DNA of 64,000 bases from Rhabdophis nuchalis (taxonomy: Eukaryota; Chordata; Lepidosauria; Squamata; Natricidae). The notes beneath the pieces were generated by a model. It saw nothing but the letters and a program-made list of their open reading frames with translations, had not been told where the DNA came from and made no database searches. Position numbers and translations under genes: made by a program. The stretch is from the NCBI GenBank assembly GCA_039707465.1, contig CM077658.1, positions 14,142,074-14,206,073 on the forward strand, written 5' to 3'. Position 1 is the first letter of the stretch. Each line of letters starts with the position of its first letter. This document shows, in pieces, positions 42,845 through 54,295 of this stretch.

Positions 42845-45800
42845 AAAACATTTTTATTTTAGAGTGATTATTTCTCGCTGGATATCCGGCCACCTGTTCA
42901 TGGCCATTGCTTCACTATAGTAACAGAATCCCTATCTTCATTTTCATTGTTTCTTAAATTTCTAAGCTTAGCCTTACAAGAGAGTGCTTGTTAAAGAATC
43001 TTTATTAGTACATTTGCCACAGGTACAGTCTTAAACAAGCCAAGATTACACATCCCATAACGGAATAGGTAGATAACCTTACTCCACAAAACTTCAGCAT
43101 ATTTATTGGTAAAACTAGCAATGCTCTGTAAACCGAGCTTCACAATATTAAAGTCTGCTTTCTTTATACCGTATACATCAAGTATTTCTTATTAAGCAGT
43201 GTGTAAACTTAGATCTGGAATACATTTTGTTTCTGGCAACTGATGCCAAATTGAATTATTATACTAGCAAAGTTTTAGAGCACTTTTGTATCAAAGTGAG
43301 AAATGAGGAGAAAGAATGCTAGAGCTTATGACTTACATATGAGGGGCGTGAAAACTAGTTTTGTTTCTTGCCCAGAATATAACAAAAACAGATAAAACAT
43401 GCCTAGTGAGACATACAATACAGTAGATGGGTTGTGAGTGTGGCGAGTCACATCTACACAGACCTGATCTACACATATCCCAACAGAATATCACTTTTTT
43501 TTATAGAAAGAACAGTTTATTTAATCAGCAGTTCAATAGCCTTAATCTATTTACATGTCTTCCATAGTCCCAGACCAAATATTTGGTTATCCTTTCTTGT
43601 AGTGACTAATGTCTTTAGGATATGTTTTGCCATTCCAGCATGCAATTTTAATTCGAAAATAGTTCAGATGAACTTTCCTTCTTGCAATTTGAATCCAGGG
43701 AAGAACGCAGCCAGTTCTTGTCCCCCAACGAAAACCTTAGCTTCACTTAGGGAAGGGACAGTGTCTAATAATCAAATGCCATCTGCTAATACTGAAAGCT
43801 GAAGTAGTGTGTGGAAAGAGTCATTCCCTCCTTATGGATGACAAAAGGCATTCATTTGCTTAACTAAAAAGAGTAAAGCCTCTTTAGTCAAAATGTGTTC
43901 CTATGAATACACATTCAAGGAATTTTTCTAAGGCATTTTGTTTATGTATGGCTATTACATACTGCTTCATTAAGGCATATACCTATTCAACCATAACATG
44001 AGACCATGAAATCCTTCGAAACATTCACTAGCCATGTTGAATAAGGTGATGCTGAGCTACCAAAATCGGCTGCAAACATCAACTTTTCTTCATAAAAAGA
44101 AGCTTCCTGCCACCAGCTTAGAATGCTAGTATTGGAAACAAATTCCATCGACAATAGTTTTCAACTAAACCTATTTGTAGGTACTAAGAAACTAACTTTT
44201 AAGATCCATTGCCCCACATGGATTAATTCCAATTGTGATCCTCGCAATGAAGCAGCTACACTCATCATCTTTTAACTCATCATAATCCCTTGCAGGGTAG
44301 AGTCTGGTCAACTGAATGGAGCTAGCAGTGTTTAATGGCCAGATGCCCTTCCTATCACCAATGCGGAGTTTTGTTCAGCAGATATATTCTCATTGAATTC
44401 ACGGCCTCCCGATTGTGAGGCAAGAGCTAGGCGACCGCACCACACAATGAAGCAGCTACATTGATGGTATATATATGCTTAGGAGACTCTGAAGATTCAG
44501 AAGCTTTAAATTGAGACAAGCTTCAAAATCCATTCCTCTTTAAAAAAAACTGCATACTTTTTTTTTTGCTATTCCTGACCATGTGGAACTAGACTGTGTT
44601 AACCTGACTTCCAACCCAGCTTTAAACTGAAGTTTCGAAAATAGAAAAATAGTCTTGGAATGGCATAAGGCCTATGAATTCAAGATTGCCCAGCTCAAAT
44701 TAAACACCCCGATGAACAATCTGACCACTTTGAAGATACATTACTTTTCTGTAACTTTATCAGCTTTGCAGCAAATGGTACTTCAAAATGTTTTCTAATA
44801 CTGACCCAATTTAACCATTAAAATGGCGCTACGGGTGCCACCTGGCTGTGGTTTATTGCAACCAGGATACAGCAGACACTTGAGATATCAAAATAAGCAA
44901 CAGACAATATGGAATAGGATGTAGTACTCTACCGATCTGCACCAAAATTAACATCTCGATTTGAAACTGGCGCCCTGAAGATGCTAAATGCAACAATGAC
45001 TCAGCTTTTGAATATCAAGATGCCGATCAGGAAAGGATAATGTGGGGAAAGTAGCCTGAAAATAAGCACATGCGCATTGTTGGGTCTGCACAGTCTGTTA
45101 TGTATATCTGCATAATAGAATAGGGGGAAAATTGACTTGAGGGTCAGTATTAAACTTGCTGCACATGTAGTTAATATAAATCCACGTTCTGATTTTCAGG
45201 GAGGTAATATTTCCCATTTCAGGTTTGAAGGCATTATTCAGCGACACACCGACGTAAGCTTCCAAACAAAAAGCAAAAACAGGAGCACAAAACATACGCC
45301 GACATTTTAAAAACCATACGTCCAGCCAAACGTGTTCCCAAAGCTAAGAATTCAAACACAGAGTTGGAAATACAAGACTTTTCCCCTTTACAGACGGAAG
45401 ATCCAACAATTTAAACTTGTTAAGAAAATCACATGGTTTTATTGTATAATGTAGCACTGAAATATGTGAACAACAACAAAAAGAAAAAAAAAAGAAAAAA
45501 AAAGAAATCGATTATCTGAGTTGGCTTCAGGCTGGCTATTCTTTCACATCCTTTTTGTTTCTTTGGGTTATTAGAGAAACTTGTCAGTACAAGAACCTTT
45601 TTTTTTTTGTATTATGGATTCTTCCCAAGGCATGCTGATAAAAACATACCCTTCCTTTGTCAAATGCAGCTAATTCTAACTTCCAAACATCATGCACAAG
45701 GAACTCTTCTAGTGACACAACATAAAACTCTTCGGAAGGGTATGTCACAAGTCTTGCTTGCTTGCCATGGTGTGCAGGTTTGTGTATGATATTTGGAATG

Positions 45801-45877: not shown

Positions 45878-45991
45878 TCAACCGTAGTTGTGCAATGCTA
45901 GCCTGAACATGTCATTGGTGCAAACCCAAGCATCATTGATGTTCTTTAATAGAAATATCTGGTGGAATCCGATCACGGGATCTTCATCGGC
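45878..45991 (-). CDS. NUTF2: NUTF2 exon 5A (canonical last coding exon)
   Basis: CTCTGCAG acceptor (plus CT at 45992-45993), then [37 protein letters not shown] and TGA. It is almost identical to the mammalian C-terminus (HNFG there). Confidence 0.95.
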
Positions 45992-48900
45992 CTGCAGAGA
46001 CAAAGGAAAAAACAAGAATTAAGATGCTTTTGAGCAGCGCACCCAATTCCTGTCACTGGAATCCAATGCTGTCATGCATATACTTCTTCCCTGACCAGCA
46101 ATTCCTTTTTGTGTCATTTTGTCTCTGTGCAAGAACACAACATGCATTTTTAGTCATGATGATGCTGAATGTCATGAATTAATTATTAAATACTGCTGGA
46201 AACTGAAGTGCAGTTCCTGACTGCGGCAGTAATTATTCAACGTTCCCCAATTTAGCGTTTTTCAGAGGATAAGTTTCCAAAATTCTTAGCCAGGAATTTG
46301 GAACAATGGGTTCACATAACTCTGGCATTCACTTAAAGACCATCATGATTTACTTAATGACTGCTGCCAAAAGTTTTGTAAAATCAGATCTGGTGAAGTA
46401 GATCAACTTAATCAACTTAGAACTGCAACAACTAAAAACCAGACATCTGGTCCCAATTGCACTCATAAAGGACTAGGTGTAAGTTTAAATCTAGATAATG
46501 AACTAAGTTTCACTTCCAGTTATAAAATGTGAAATACTTCTTCCTGACCCTTCAGTGATGTTTTATGACTAACTAAGGTGGAATAGTGTCATCTCATATA
46601 ATCATCTTGAAAATGAACTGCAGATACATAATAATTTTGGTTTTACAGTACAACCAAGCAAAACATTGATAAAAATGGCTTTCACATGAAATGGATCAAT
46701 TTTCAATCTAGACCAGTGTTTCTCAACCTCTTTAATGTACAGAATTTGCTAACTAGCACATTGGCCGGGGAATTCTGGGAGTTGAAGTCCACACATCTTA
46801 AAATTCTCAAGGTTGAGAAACACTGATCTAGACCAGGGGTGTCAAACTGGCGACCTGCAGGCATGATGCGTCACACGCAGGCCACGCCCACCCCAGGTCC
46901 GCGAAAGCATCAACGTGACGCCTGCGATCTAGACCATTTGTATAATGATGTCATCACACAAATGCCGTGCAACTATTTACTCCCTAATATAATGGACATT
47001 TTGTACAATGGGCATTTCCCCAATTAGCCTGTAAAACAAGGTTACATTGTAGCTATTTTTAATAGATTGAGGAACATGACATTGCAAGACTTAAGGCTGT
47101 ATTTGCACACTGTACTAACTCTTATGCTGGTATGCTTTGTAAATCCAGTCAGTGCATATAAACCATATTTGTGGCTTAGAAGAGTGTGAACTCACTCAAA
47201 TGTGTCCTAGCCAGTTAGTTATGGTTACAACCCATCAACTAGATCTATGTGTTAAATATTTGGTAAAGGTAAGAAGGAGCCCTGTCATGGATAGCATGTT
47301 GTCAGCAATTGGCAGTTGGGGTAAACCAAACTAAAATGCATTCTGGGACTGGAAATTTTGTGTTGGCTTCAGAAGTTCTTCTAACTCTCACTCCTCCCTC
47401 CAAAAAAATAAATTAAACAAAATAGCCTGAGACAATCCTTACAATTGTGTGCCTAGTCATGCTACCCTCCCCTGTGCAAAACCCCACTTAGGGGTCAGTT
47501 TCACAAAGGCATCTTGATATTTCAGAATTCTCAGCTAACACATTCATCTTGGCTGGGACCAGCTGTCTAATGTATTGGGATAGTACCAGATCAGGGAAAG
47601 TCAACATAGAACCATAGGGAAGAGATATAAGAGTGTTTCCTAAAAGTTAGTCCTTCTGCAACCCAAATTTTACTATTTGTTTCTCTCGGCACCCAAAGTG
47701 GAAGAGTGCAGAGCAGTACCTGGCCATGCCGTACATCCCAAGAGGCACGGGGTCCTTGTGCTTCCCGAGCTTACTTATTTTCTTGCAGACATCTCATTAC
47801 CAACTAGATAACATCACCTAGCACTTATAAGGCTAGTTGAGTAATTGTTCTGACCCCAACACGACAAGCCCCCTGTATTTAAACCAATGATTCCTTTATT
47901 AGGAGCGCCAGCAGCCGTGGCCAAAAGATGAATAGTTGTCTGCCACATCTATTCATCTCTGCCCCCTGCCTTTTATGCCCAGAGCTAGGATGGGGCTTCG
48001 CTAAGAGCGGTGGTTCTTCCATCCCAAGGACCAGCCCACAGATTTCCACTGCTCTCCTTTCCTCTGCCTTCTGCACATCTGTGCGTCAGGCACTGGACCC
48101 AGCTGTTCCTCCTCTTCCTCATCAGCCACCTCCAAACCTGGGGGCTGTTGACTCTCCATCTGAGGGCTGATGTACGTCTCTCTCTCTCATAGCTCTGTTC
48201 CCTCTTCCCCCTCAGAGCTCCCAAGTTGCCCTGATGCTGCCCGACTCCCACGCCTCCTCCTCTGATTCAGCTGCTGGAGGGGCCGGTGGCTGACGCGCCA
48301 CAACAGTAATGAAATGTCTACAAGGAAACAACCAAGCTGAGAGCATCAAGGGCTCCAGGGTTCAATCCCGAGCGAGTTACAAATATTCCCTTCTATCGAT
48401 TCCCAGATCCTTCCTACTGTTCCACTTTGAAAATACCAGGCCAAATCCGTTCTTTAAACCCACCTTTTCTGTGACAGCTTTCATTTAACCCTTTAATTCT
48501 CCTTAGCAATCAACACAACTGCATTTGCCCACTCTTATTCGTTTTGACATTCCCTCTTCCTTATCAATCACTGCAGTTAATATATCAACTGGACACTTCT
48601 CGCAGTTGAGGCGAATGTCTGTTTACGAACGGCATGCTCACAACGGATTAAACAGTAAGCTGCCCTCCGCCCTGGGGACCCTGGTGTAAGAAACAAGTTG
48701 CACAGTTGTACCTAGAGGCACGAATGCAGACAGTTTTCAGGCATAACAAGGCAAGCATTCATTGTATGCCACTCCAACGTTCCAGAGTTCTAAGCAGCGC
48801 TTGTATCCTAAAGGTGTTAAACAAGCAACCGATTGATATAGGTAAACACTACATTAACTGTTTGGCAGCTGCTTCTGCAAAGGAAACGCCACCGCTGCTC

Positions 48901-51900
48901 ATTTCGAGAGTCATCAACCTGAAGCAATCCACACTGTCATACTGCAACCCTCCTCGGGTAACACACAAGCAATGTTCATGCTTTTTTTTTTTTTGCAAGA
49001 TCAGGTGGGGCAGAGGAACAGGCAGAACGCTTCTTACTCAGAGAGGGGGCAGTGAAGATCAGAAGGCTAAACATTGTGGAGAGCTAGCCTGAAGACTTCA
49101 TTGGTGCATACCCAGGCACCTTGTAAGTTTTTCAACAAAAAGGTCTGATGGAAACCTAGAATTTGGTCATCATCTGCCTGAGCAGGACAGGAGAAAAACG
49201 TTACGATCTGAAAATACCAAATGGCGGTAGCTTTACAAAACTCTGAAAGGGATATATTTATGGCACTTGCATAGAATAATTTTTTATTTTATTTTATTTT
49301 ATTTATATTAGATTACTATCCCGCCCTATCTCCCATAAAGGGACTCAGGGCGGCGCACAGGAATTTAAAAATCTAAAATACAGACGATACAAAATTCTAC
49401 AAAAGTTAAAACTAATATTAAATAATAAGCCAAAATGGGGTTACTAACATCTCCGGGGTGTTTTACTGAATATTAAGAAGCAGTGCTATAAAAAGAGGCA
49501 TGGGGGGGGGGGGGGGGGAATAAAACACCAGAGCTCAGTGTGAGTCATCATATTTGGAGCTACTTACAAACTACACTCTTGTGTTAATTGTTTATTATTA
49601 AGAGCAGATGAATTGTGTCATTGTATTCAGTTCAAGTCTAGAGTAAAAAAAATAAAAAGACCAAAGGGGAAGTGACTTTGTAAGCCTGTTGCAATTGTGT
49701 GATTTTTCTGCTCAGTGATTGTCCTGTTTAGCGAAGGAATTGCCAGTCCCTACCGGTCACTAAGCAAAGACTACTTATAAGGTTTCAAAGACAGCACTTT
49801 TAAGTGGCACTCGAGAGCAAACTGGCAATTAATTCTGCCACCACGGCACAGGTGTAACATGGCCATATCGCAGCCGCACATAAGCTGCTACATTATGACA
49901 TCAAGTGAATTGTAGTTACTTGCAGATTTTGGCAATTCCATGATATGGTTTGCTGGACTGAGTATGTGCCCTCCTTACCTCCATGTTGCATTAGGCTTAT
50001 TTCTAGTGTAATAGGCTGTGCCCCATTTTAGTTTGTCCAAACAGGCTTAGTGTATTGGGAATCCTCTCAATTCCTCACTGATCTATCGTGATGGGGTCAC
50101 AGGATCTTTTTGCGCATGACTTCGTTAAGAGGCTCCCATTTAGGTTCTTTAATGACAAGAGGGTCAGAATTGTTTGCAAATAGTTCTGGCCCTGCTTTCC
50201 AATTGGATGAAAGATTATTGTCCCAAAGGTGCTTTTCACCAGGCAACTACCCCCCGACCTTCGCACTACCTCGGACCTCCGCCTCTTCCGCCAACGTCTT
50301 AAGACGTATCTATTCCAACAAGCCGGCCTAGCGTAGCCCCCCGTTTCTGACTCTATCTATAAATTTTAATTTTCAGGGTTTTAAATGGGTTTTTAGCACG
50401 GGTTTTAATTTAATTTAATATGTTTTTAATAGTGTATATTGTCTTTTGTTATGGTTTTAATAATGCCTGTGCGCCGCCCTGAGTCCTAACAAGGAGAAGG
50501 GTGGGGTATAAATTCGAAAAATAAAATAAAATAATTTTCTGTTTTTTTTTTCTTTCAAGACATTTCGCTTCTCAACCAAGAAGCTTCTTCAGCTCTGACT
50601 GGATGGTGGGAAATAGAAAGAGTCTGATCATCCAATCAAAGCTGAAGAAGATGAGAAGCAAGATGTCTTCAAAGAAAAAACAACAGAAAGTCCAGTTGCC
50701 TCGTGAAAAAGCACCTATGACCTGGATGACTGAGAGTCTCCATAGACATTTAGCAATGCAAAATGATTATTACTTTGATTCTTCCTAGCAGCCAGCACAG
50801 GCAGACTTTGCAACCTGTTCTCACTGTGCCCTCATTGTATGTTATACATAAAGGTAAAGGTTCCCCTCGCACATATGTACCAGTCGTTCCTAACTCTAGG
50901 GGGCGGTGCTCATCTCCGTTTCAAAGCCGAAGAGCCAGCACTGTCCGAAGACGTCTCCATGTTCATGTGGCCAGCATGACTGAACGCCAAAGGCGCACGG
51001 AACGCTATAAACTTCCCACCAAAGGAAGGTGGTTCCTATTTTTTTACTTGCATTTTTTACGTGCTTTTGAACTGCTAGGTTGGCAGAAGCTGGGACAAGT
51101 CACGGGAGCTCACATCCGTTTCGCGGAGCTAGGGATTCGAACCACTGAACTGCCAATCTTCTGATTGACAAGCTCAGCATCTTAGCCACTGAACCACCGT
51201 GACCCCTAGATGTTATGCATAAAGGAAGAGAAATAACCTCAATGAAGAACCCTGGTCACTTAATAGTTGAAGTCTGTGCATTCAGCTTTGCTGAGCTAAT
51301 CAAAAGTGGACTGGCATATCTATGACACCTTCTTGAGACATTAAGGCTAGCTTAGGCTATAGCTGTCAAAGTTCTGATGATCAAAACCGAGCTATCAAGC
51401 AGGTCACATAAGCAGGCTATGAACGGATTCTTGACTAGTGCTCTAAATCAGAGTTTCTTAACCGTGGCAATTTTAAGGACTTCAATTCCCAGAATTCCCT
51501 GGCCAGCTAGCACCCGGATAAGGAAATGCTGTTCTAAATATTTCTTCCCTGCAACCCAGGCCTCAAAACAGACTTACTTTAAGTTGTCCAACTACCATAC
51601 TGAGTATACAGCTGTCTGGTGTAGGCTGATGATCTTGGGATGTGATGCTGTGCTGTATTTTCTGAAAAGGAAGGCTCTGAAAGAGAAGGAAGAAACACAG
51701 GAGGATTTACACGTCGTCCTCGTTTAACAACCACTCATTCAGTGACTGTTCAAACTTAAAGGTGGCTCCGGATGAGCGGCAGATACGAAAGGTCGTATGC
51801 TGGTTGCAGCAATCCCACAGTCACAGGATCGCCACAGGCAACCCACTTTGCTGGTTTCCTACAAGCAAAGGCAATGGGAAAGCTGGCCAGAGGTCGTAAA

Positions 51901-54295
51901 TAGTGACCACATGATAAATGACACGGGGCAATTCCCTTAACTGTGTCAACCGGAAGCGCTGGGATTTCTACTGCTAAGCAACGTGGTCGTGCAATGTTGA
52001 AGTTTGCAACTGTGTCACTTAGCATTGGAAATACCAGTCCCAATTAGTACCATAATGTGAGAACTACAGATAGTCCCCGACAAACAGTTCATTTGGCAAA
52101 CTGTTCAAAGTTACAATGGCACTGGAAAAAAGTGATTTAGGACCATTTTTCGCACTTACAAGTATTGCAGCATCCCCCTGGTTACATGATCAAAATTCAG
52201 ATGCTTGCCAACTGATTCATATTTATGACAGTGTCCCAGGTATCCACCCTGAAGCTGATCTAGACAAGGCCATCTTGGAACGTCAGTGCTGCCACTCTGC
52301 AGCGAGGGATAGGGAGGGGAGGGAGATTAGAGATAGCTGAGGTTGTGTAGTCAAAACAAAGTACTTTCTCTTGGGAACCAAGGACATTCTCACACCTGGC
52401 AGAAGGAGTGATGTCCCCAGACCAGTGGAGGCTGCTGTGATTGGGCCAGGTGACTGATTGGGTTTGAGGAGAAAACTTTTACTTTCAATTAGGTGAAAAC
52501 CAAGGGGCCCCTTGGAGTTGGTTTTCACCAGATCTGTGCCAACATGATATTTCCAATAAAGCTATTCTTTGAGGAATCTATCTGCCTCAGAGCTTTAGCT
52601 TGCAATGGATCTATTACTTGGAACCCTGACCCCAGGGTCATTGGTCACCTTTTCTGACCTTCTGACAAGCAAATTTAACGGAGGAGTCAGATTCACTTTA
52701 CCACCTTGTTACTACCGTAACAACTGAAGCGATTCACTTAACAACTGCCACAAGCAAAGTAATAAAATGGGACAAAATTCTGTCTCGCTTAGCCATTTTT
52801 GGCTCAATAGTGGTCGTACCCATACCTGAGTGGCAGAGATTCATGGGGTAAATAGTATTCCTTTACCTTCTGGGGAAAACTCTATCCAAATTTGTGGTGC
52901 GTTTCCCTTTGTACATTTTAAATAAAACCACAAAGTCAGTGATGGCGAACCTTTTAGACGAGTGCCCAAACTGCAAGGTGTGCATGCGCGAGGTAAGAGG
53001 TGGCAAGAGGTAAGAGCTTTTTCTTTCATGAGCTTGTTTTGTCGTTTGTAGGGAAACAGAAGCTCATGAAAGAAATGCCATGGAGATCTGACCTGGGGCG
53101 ACGGCATGCATGCCAGCCGAGAGGGCTCTCCGTGCCACCTATGGCACACGTGCCATAGGTTCGCCATGACGGCCCTAAGCGATAACAGCATGCCATTAAA
53201 AAATGGAGTTTACTTACAGAGAATAGATTTTGGTGGAAAGGTTAAGATTACTCTATCCAGGTGATAAAGATGAATTAAGCCAAGAGCAGGAAACTCATGG
53301 CCTGCATGCAGCTCCCTACCCAAAGAAATCTGAAAGCTAACTTGCAAGGTGACATTTATTCCATTGTACAGGTGAGGCAATTTCTAGAATTTGGGGAGAG
53401 GGTTATCTTAGGCTGAACATCAGAACCACAGCATATGAGAAACTTACTGAGAGTTTTTCAACAATAGCTACTTTGCCCTGAAATTGTAGTCCTTCCCATG
53501 TAAGGCATGAGGCATCTATCTGAAACAATAAAACAATAATCTGCTTAGAAACATTTTATTTTGCACCCTAGAAATAGTAACATACGTTAAAAACAAATTA
53601 GCAATTTCTCAGAGTTCCTCAGAGTCAAAAGTGATTCAAGACAACCTTTATATATTAGATAAATATAGACAATATATTAGTGATAAAGATTGAATACAAT
53701 AATGCTTCTTGAGATTAAATGAACTGTAAGGTAAAGACAAAGGTTCCCCTCACACATATGTGCTAGTTGTTACTGACTCTAGGGGGCGGTGCTCATCTCT
53801 GTTTCAAAGCCGAAGAGCCAGGGCTGTCCAAAGACATCTCCAGGGTCATGTGATCAGCATAACTAAATGCCGAAGGCACATGGAACACTGTTACCTTCCC
53901 ACCAAAGGTGGTTCCTATTTTTCTACTTGCATTTTTACATGCTTTCGAACTGCTAGGTTGGCAGAAGCTGGGACAAGTAACGGGAGCTCACTCCGTTATG
54001 CTGTGCTAGGGATTTGAACCACCAAACTGCCAACCTTTCTGATCATCAAGCTCAGCATCTTAGCCACTGTGTCCCTTAAATTAACTGTAAGATACTGCTA
54101 AACAACATTATGAGCCAGCATTATTGACTTCAAAGGAAGGTGGAGGTCAATGATAAAACAACCCACAATAAAAGCATCTGTTTCAGAGTTACTTACATAT
54201 ATTGATCCTAACTGAGTCCGGTCTGTATCAAATAATTGATAGTAATGCTGTACAAAGCTGGAACCAATCTGTTCCCAAATAGGCTTGTCTCCCAT
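45878..54295 (-). CDS. NUTF2: NUTF2, nuclear transport factor 2, isoform A (127 aa)
   Basis: NTF2 is the small homodimeric carrier that binds RanGDP and FxFG nucleoporins and returns Ran to the nucleus. Coding exons: 54197-54295 ([20 protein letters not shown]...), 53448-53519 ([20 protein letters not shown]), 51578-51676 ([20 protein letters not shown]) and 45878-45991 ([17 protein letters not shown]...). They have 33, 24, 33 and 37 codons, all in phase 0, totalling 127 as in human. Trp7, the acidic Ran-contact residues around Glu42 and Asp92/Asp94, and Met118 are all present, as judged from remembered human numbering. The start is fixed by the conserved [11 protein letters not shown]. An alternative last exon at 49067-49177 gives isoform B. 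Confidence 0.95.
46714..46825. mobile_element. hAT MITE, 8-bp TSD ATCTAGAC
   Basis: Ends CAGTGTTTCTCAACC and GGTTGAGAAACACTG. ATCTAGAC occurs at 46706-46713 and 46826-46833. It lies between NUTF2 exons 5B and 5A. Confidence 0.9.
46834..46926 (+). mobile_element. Second hAT-like element abutting the first at the same target
   Basis: It begins CAGGGGTGTCAAACTGG directly after the TSD of the previous element. ATCTAGAC is found a third time at 46927-46934. The right end (GCCTGCG) is atypical, so it may be decayed or deleted. Confidence 0.6.
47846..48305 (-). mobile_element. Solo LTR, 460 bp, TSD GTAAT
   Basis: On the minus strand it runs TGTTGTGGCGCGTCAGCC to GGGGTCAGAACA, with a polyadenylation signal CTAATAAAGG. 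GTAAT occurs at 47841-47845 and 48306-48310. It lies between NUTF2 exons 5B and 5A, in sense with NUTF2. Confidence 0.85.
48310..49066 (-). other. NUTF2: Putative 3'UTR of NUTF2 isoform B
   Basis: Unique sequence downstream of the exon 5B stop. The only polyadenylation-like signal seen is ATTAAA (plus TTTAAT at 48492-48497). A solo LTR with its own AATAAA lies just beyond (47846-48305). Confidence 0.4.
49067..49177 (-). CDS. NUTF2: NUTF2 exon 5B (alternative last coding exon)
   Basis: CTGCTCAG acceptor (plus CT at 49178-49179), then [36 protein letters not shown] and TAG. By hand alignment 25 of 36 residues equal exon 5A. Of those 25 identical codons, about 12 differ synonymously. Conserved are D92, D94, GFHQ, FLLKN, AWVCTN and FRLALHN. 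Changed are residue 102 (I to T), 108-110 (IND to LQG), 117-118 (DM to EV) and the C-terminus (YG to V). There is no intron-flank similarity to 5A that I can see. Confidence 0.85.
49067..54295 (-). CDS. NUTF2: NUTF2 isoform B (126 aa), alternative last exon
   Basis: This form uses the same first three coding exons (54197-54295, 53448-53519, 51578-51676) joined to exon 5B at 49067-49177. Exon 5B lies 2.4 kb downstream of exon 4 and 3.1 kb before exon 5A. The join is in phase 0 and gives [20 protein letters not shown]. The form ends FRLALHNV with a TAG stop. Whether it is transcribed is not shown by the sequence. Preserved frame, splice site, key motifs and stop position argue that it is functional. 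Confidence 0.75.
49280..49450 (-). mobile_element. L2/CR1-clade LINE 3' end
   Basis: ATTTT tail, TATCCCGCCCTATCTCCC and TCAGGGCGGCGCACAGG. It lies about 100 bp from the exon 5B acceptor. Confidence 0.78.
49503..49518. repeat. Poly-G run
   Basis: About sixteen consecutive G on the plus strand in NUTF2 intron 4. Confidence 0.8.
50225..50757. mobile_element. Unassigned repeat interrupted by an L2/CR1-clade LINE 3' end
   Basis: CAAAGGTGCTTTTCACCAGG breaks at about 50250 and resumes near 50535 with AGACATTTCGCTTCTCAACC. The inserted LINE piece (50250-50535) shows CTCCGCCTCTTCCGCCAACG and GCGCCGCCCTGAGTCC. Confidence 0.65.
50852..51209 (-). mobile_element. Sauria SINE
   Basis: A near full-length copy: GGTAAAGGTTCCCCTCGCAC, GCCGAAGAGCCAGCACTGTC, CTGCTAGGTTGGCAGAAGC, GATTCGAACCACTGAACTGC. 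Confidence 0.88.
51449..51531. mobile_element. hAT MITE, 8-bp TSD CTCTAAAT/TTCTAAAT
   Basis: It begins CAGAGTTTCTTAACCG and ends AAGGAAATGCTG. Flanks at 51441-51448 and 51532-51539 differ at one base. It lies just downstream of NUTF2 exon 4. Confidence 0.7.
51578..51676 (-). CDS. NUTF2: NUTF2 exon 4 (residues 58-90)
   Basis: Reads [20 protein letters not shown] and [19 protein letters not shown] acceptor and GTAAGT donor, phase 0 on both sides. It contains the hydrophobic patch around Ile64 and Met84 described for NTF2 nucleoporin and dimer contacts. Confidence 0.94.
51710..52070 (+). mobile_element. AGTCCTCGACTTAC-type DNA element
   Basis: CGTCCTCGTTTAACAACCAC to AATGTGAGAACTACAGATAG. A second copy follows head-to-tail from 52071. 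Confidence 0.65.
52071..52818 (+). mobile_element. AGTCCTCGACTTAC-type DNA element with an internal insertion
   Basis: GTCCCCGACAAACAGTTC opens it. The family body breaks near 52235 and resumes near 52630 (GGTCATTGGTCACCTTTTC). The intervening 400 bp includes TTCCAATAAAGCTATTC and is not recognised. Confidence 0.55.
52935..53175. mobile_element. hAT-like element (GATGGCGAACCT family)
   Basis: CAGTGATGGCGAACCTTTTAG at one end, CCATAGGTTCGCCATGACG at the other. Confidence 0.6.
53448..53519 (-). CDS. NUTF2: NUTF2 exon 3 (residues 34-57)
   Basis: [20 protein letters not shown] followed by EKLS. TTTCAG acceptor, GTAAGT donor, 24 codons in phase 0. It contains Trp41 and Glu42 of the Ran-binding region. 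Confidence 0.94.
53731..54078 (-). mobile_element. Sauria SINE
   Basis: GTAAAGACAAAGGTTCCCC tail through GATTTGAACCACCAAACTGC to the head at TTAGCCACTGTGTCCC. It lies about 120 bp from the NUTF2 exon 2 donor. Confidence 0.87.

Follow-up and report, generated by a model that had tools for sequence, protein, structure and literature searches.

The NUTF2 gene of the squamate Rhabdophis nuchalis lies on the minus strand of a 64,000-nucleotide stretch of contig CM077658.1 (positions 14,142,074 to 14,206,073; hereafter the window, in whose coordinates all positions are given). It contains two homologous last coding exons, termed 5B and 5A, that would provide NTF2 with alternative C-termini. In our reading, to which we assign a probability of about 0.78, NUTF2 acquired exon 5B as an additional last coding exon by tandem duplication, probably before cartilaginous and bony vertebrates separated, and splicing is predicted to use this exon in place of 5A.

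The first coding exon of the gene is exon 2, which begins at the ATG (54197–54295, encoding 33 residues). It is followed by exon 3 (53448–53519; 72 bases, 24 residues) and exon 4 (51578–51676; 33 residues), which ends in phase 0 at the donor AAA/GTAAGT at 51578. Exon 5B (49067–49177, including the stop codon) encodes 36 residues, with counterparts of B type in other vertebrates, and is preceded by the acceptor tract TTTTCTCCTGTCCTGCTCAG (49178–49197). Exon 5A (45878–45991, also including the stop codon) encodes 37 residues and follows the acceptor tract TTTTTCCTTTGTCTCTGCAG (45992–46011). Each has a good acceptor and each joins exon 4 in phase 0, giving predicted proteins of 126 residues with 5B and 127 with 5A. 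They are adjacent homologous coding exons of the same phase and of similar length (36 and 37 codons), so that either could take the place of the other. What a first-pass annotation of this DNA gave for the two exons, from positions and acceptors to phase, length and number of residues, was reproduced in full.

The encoded tails share 25 identical residues out of 36, at 12 of which the codons differ silently, confirming the identity and the approximate number of silent differences counted earlier. The first 36 codons differ at 34 of their 108 bases, with 8, 4 and 22 changes at codon positions 1, 2 and 3 respectively. The proportion of synonymous differences (pS) is 0.83, i.e. synonymous change is saturated, and the nonsynonymous divergence (dN) is 0.213. 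When 34 changes were placed randomly in 5A a mean of 15.3 identical residues was kept, and none of 100,000 draws retained 25; 38% of the draws were free of stop codons. Comparison of the exons with 600-base flanks by blastn aligned the exons together with about 20 bases of the acceptor tract, beyond which there were only ten matches of 11–16 bases, with expect (E) values of at least 0.21. No third copy of the tail was found within the window using tblastn with both tails, the leftover matches having E values of at least 1.7.

The first-pass annotation had proposed an old tandem exon duplication maintained by selection on the protein. Both the tandem duplication and the constraint on the protein are supported, also by evidence from outside the window: B-type tails are found from sharks to birds, and the B tails of the window and of the passerine Panurus (P0122) agree at 35 residues out of 36. 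From these comparisons we conclude that 5B is an old duplicate kept as protein. A recent copy is rejected, given the saturated silent sites and flanks that are alike only in the acceptor tract, and the conservation of the tail to birds and gecko rejects a decaying pseudo-exon for the window 5B. A retrocopy is not favoured, the copy being a single exon with its own acceptor, and a novelty confined to squamates is rejected by the B tails of birds, frogs, fish and sharks.

Three protein searches provided 165 distinct proteins, named by cluster representatives at 90% identity; one covered 120 of its 354 matches, and two directed at the B tail yielded 95 and 25. A rule based on the tail classed 23 of the 165 as B-like, to which inspection by eye added the chimaera record P0021 and, from Antrostomus, the first half of P0121, and part of a B tail is present in P0003 (Bombina bombina X2). 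The names attached to B tails are those of birds, gecko, frogs, caecilian, salamander, bichir, gar, carp, trout, sharks and chimaera, and the tail is near-identical among the window, gecko and birds. Eight B records are labelled as NUTF2 isoforms (P0020, P0021, P0027, P0028, P0036, P0038, P0046 and P0155), and the annotation labels of Lithobates pipiens give isoform X1 an A tail and isoform X2 a B tail. Two records preserve the order of the exons found in the window: P0121, from a 13.5-kb contig, has a B tail and then an A tail, and P0003 has a partial B, cut at AW, and then A. It is likely from these records that many vertebrates make a second version of NTF2 with the B tail. No B tail bears the name of a mammal among the matches listed for the 165 proteins, as judged by representatives' names only; the B-tail-aimed search with 95 matches did include mammals, by name with A tails only. 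Mammals have likely lost 5B.

We note some variation among the B records. The ends of the tails differ, that of the chimaera ending in FQ when uncut, that of gar having 37 residues, and one Bombina model extending to 50. In isoform X2 of Rhinatrema (P0028) exon 4 is separated from the B tail by about 25 extra residues, which may come from an upstream acceptor or another exon. Seven records from birds and one shark (P0092, P0093, P0104, P0120, P0144, P0150 and P0155) carry ..KDSSSRAKQLLLKNS.. or a similar stretch, apparently exon 3 translated in another frame, with exon 4 then back in frame; the corresponding frame of exon 3 in the window holds two stops.

A tree of the tails was calculated from 50 rows and 37 columns under the LG+G4 model with the mixture off. 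The B rows were trimmed to 36 residues, making column 127 uninformative on B. The B records P0002, P0056 (the degraded gar sequence), P0124, P0126, P0127, P0129 and P0155 and the partial B of P0003 lie outside this set, as do many A records. In this tree the A and B tails group by exon type, and not by species. Bony fish and tetrapod B rows unite in a starred group (98/90), within which the window B tail joins that of gecko (97/93) and lies nearest to that of a bird. Seven A/B pairs were jointly forced to be sisters; six were taken from single species, and the set included Antrostomus and a Scyliorhinus pair comprising A of canicula and B of torazame. This arrangement was rejected, with a difference in log-likelihood (lnL) of 116.6, and forcing the window pair alone was also rejected (p 0.012). 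A single clade of all B rows was not rejected, with p values in the approximately unbiased test (p-AU) of 0.44 and 0.45 and costs of 2.5 and 0.3 lnL units in two runs. Each class has 18 invariant columns, over 23 A rows and over 19 B rows, the degraded gar sequence being outside the set. Since the tails group by exon type and the seven sister pairs are rejected, the duplication likely occurred before the shark/bony-vertebrate split. The likeliest history to be drawn from the alignment is one duplication before cartilaginous and bony vertebrates diverged, with later decay or loss in some lines.

The NUTF2-like paralogue (nutf2l; P0081, P0095, P0099 and P0118) resembles the B isoform in being a second vertebrate NTF2-type protein. 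It differs in that it is named as a distinct protein and has tails such as ..KWICSNDIFRLALYNFA, and the 50-row tree places the majority of its rows away from B. Confusion of B with this paralogue is rejected by both the tails and the tree, although that tree does put a single newt row labelled A with the paralogue and a single paralogue row with the A tails.

The bird B isoform P0002, which is 94% identical to the predicted B protein of the window, was modelled using AlphaFold2 with a predicted local distance difference test score (pLDDT) of 89.4. The closest match to the model in the PDB is 1oun (NTF2), with a template modelling (TM) score of 0.96 and a deviation of 1.1 Å, so that as modelled this B isoform has the NTF2 fold. 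The acidic residues D92 and D94, which we take to be the Ran contacts of NTF2, are present in both A and B of the window and in 42 of 42 tree rows, and N116, F119 and R120 are invariant in the same 42. The stretch around D92 and D94 is altered in the gar B record, which is outside the tree. D92 and D94 are changed together in the mutant of PDB entry 1gy5. Other positions shift between the classes by majority, on passing from A to B: M to L at 97, D to E at 117, M to V at 118 and F to V, I or L at 126. Position 95 changes by majority from P to Q, with Q also found in six of 23 A rows, and position 102 is mixed in A and by majority T in B. Structures have been solved for the NTF2 mutants M102E and M118E (1jb4 and 1jb5), which presumably probe the dimer. 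The B tail would appear to keep the Ran side of the protein and to alter the dimer side, because D92 and D94 are retained and the class shifts include 102, 117 and 118. The binding site for FxFG is described in passages of one paper as the dimer interface of NTF2 (PMC3852005). Passages of a preprint describe much NUTF2 as monomeric, and cite a paper titled 'NTF2 monomer-dimer equilibrium' (PMC10402242). The B tail might alter dimer stability or the binding of FxFG; this is the least certain of our conclusions.

These observations suggest a mechanism in which splicing of 5B to exon 4 in place of 5A would generate a second C-terminus for NTF2. Exon 5B would be an alternative terminal exon, with its own cleavage and poly(A) site competing with onward splicing to 5A; cleavage before 5A would lead to B, and read-through with splicing to 5A would lead to A. 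Candidate poly(A) hexamers can be read in the letters of the minus strand. The nearest of canonical type after 5B is ATTAAA at 48492–48497, followed by AATAAA at 47895–47900, and there is an AATAAA downstream of 5A at 45438–45443. Potential donors were scored using approximate frequencies, on a scale that gives exons 2 and 3 no more than 3.6 and 1.5 for their true donors, and the sequence was rescanned at 1.5. No donor scoring at least 1.5 is found in the approximately 600 bases past the 5B stop. The first to reach that score is AAG/GTGGGT at 48464, which outscores the authentic donors of both exon 2 and exon 3.

The B protein is expected to fold as NTF2 and should still bind RanGDP, given that D92, D94 and the folding core are all preserved in its tail. 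Homodimers of B, or dimers of B with A, could form through a dimer side that is retuned (102, 117, 118 and the C-terminal end); this might change FxFG binding or dimer stability, and hence how fast RanGDP is imported in certain cells or stages. A broader proposal, which we offer tentatively as one possibility, is that jawed vertebrates have had a second NTF2, its dimer retuned by the exchanged C-terminal strands, since before the shark/bony split. B homodimers or A/B heterodimers would take RanGDP across the nuclear pore at a different rate, the Ran gradient and nuclear size would be set by splicing, and mammals would have discarded the system.

A number of observations weigh against an ancient, protein-coding 5B. 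The B records of other species are gene models or predictions, and some are odd. Exon 3 is odd or shifted in the bird models P0092 and P0104, exon 3 is joined directly to 5B with exon 4 skipped in P0124, P0158 and P0165, and P0127 and P0129 run through intron-like sequence. The B-type tails of gar (P0056) and of one trout record (P0098) have altered core residues and look decayed. No B tail of a turtle, crocodile or percomorph is found among the matches listed. In the tree the shark and chimaera B rows adjoin a hagfish A row in the best topology, and the A/B pair of Bombina taken alone as sisters is not rejected (p 0.090).

The irregular models and the visible decay in gar and one trout record would be expected if 5B were an unused relic, or an artefact of gene prediction repeatedly joined to exon 4 by annotation pipelines. 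We consider this very improbable, since a relic of such age could not have kept its frame, acceptor and residues (none of the null draws reaching the observed identity), and the tail is near-identical in the window, gecko and birds. The exon might instead be mainly regulatory, being spliced ahead of 5A or providing an early stop, so that the level of NUTF2 is set by mRNA decay and the B protein is unimportant. The Bombina bombina models P0003 (X2) and P0020 (X3) exit 5B early or late and continue into 5A. P0003 leaves at ..SSAW, for which the matching site in the window at 49112 is a weak donor, TGG/GTATGC, and the end of P0020 resembles 5A in another frame; the donor at 48464 past the 5B stop also fits such a role. 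Yet an exon that serves for decay needs no conserved class-specific residues, whereas in the tree set half of the B columns, 18 of 36, show no variation from sharks through to birds. The match of window B to bird B at all but one residue and the lack of a donor of at least 1.5 in the interval past the 5B stop also weigh against this reading, and we regard a mainly regulatory exon as unlikely.

The B exons of sharks and those of bony vertebrates could have arisen by separate duplications, and merely resemble each other. There are just 37 columns on which to judge this, and shark and chimaera B are placed apart from other B in the best tree. Moreover, convergent tandem exon duplication has been described for many genes of vertebrates, arthropods and nematodes in passages of a study of such exons (PMC9741552). 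Against this, uniting all B rows costs little likelihood and is not rejected, the seven sister pairs, sharks among them, are rejected, and the B group within bony vertebrates is starred. Separate origins are thus improbable, and a single duplication before the split is the interpretation that we prefer.

Downstream of NUTF2, minus-strand open reading frames at approximately 16016–40751 of the window resemble exons of EDC4, which we take to be the neighbour of NUTF2 in mammals.

The swapping of homologous C-terminal exons is a known class, of which NUTF2 is a new case, and a surprising one for NTF2. According to passages of a human study, 77 of 236 tandem duplicated exon substitution events are C-terminal, an enriched class, and most events are called ancient with key residues maintained (Martinez-Gomez et al. 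2022, PMC9741552). NUTF2 resembles that C-terminal class as described there in having neighbouring homologous coding exons, predicted one-at-a-time use and exchange of the C-terminus, with shared phase, similar length and conservation of both exons across species. It differs from the human set in that the main text does not name NUTF2 and that no B tail has a mammal's name among the matches listed. The fly orthologue Ntf-2 likewise has two transcripts, RA and RB, distinguished by an exon specific to RB; the passages concerned are silent on whether it is a last exon or a homologous copy (PMC8645118). They also state that Ntf-2 has a single DNA-level duplicate in the fly, from which the exon specific to RB is missing.

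The first-pass annotation knew of no description of two C-terminal isoforms of NTF2 from one vertebrate gene. This agrees with a literature search that found, among the papers listed, no account of a last-exon pair in vertebrate NUTF2, a weak negative in that many of its results concerned subjects other than NUTF2. Protein databases already list B-type isoforms, however, and the fly RA and RB transcripts are described in the excerpts of PMC8645118.

NTF2 is described, in passages of one paper, as the dedicated import factor of RanGDP and as a single 127-residue protein that forms a homodimer (PMC10636164). If the broader proposal made above is true, a field based on mammalian NTF2 has overlooked the B form. 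The pair of exons would be a clean example of an ancient duplicate that mammals appear to have lost, and A and B would offer a natural pair of proteins with which to probe dimer stability and FxFG binding in cells. Splicing could then set the import of Ran in many vertebrates, through a second and deeply conserved C-terminus located on the dimer side of the protein.

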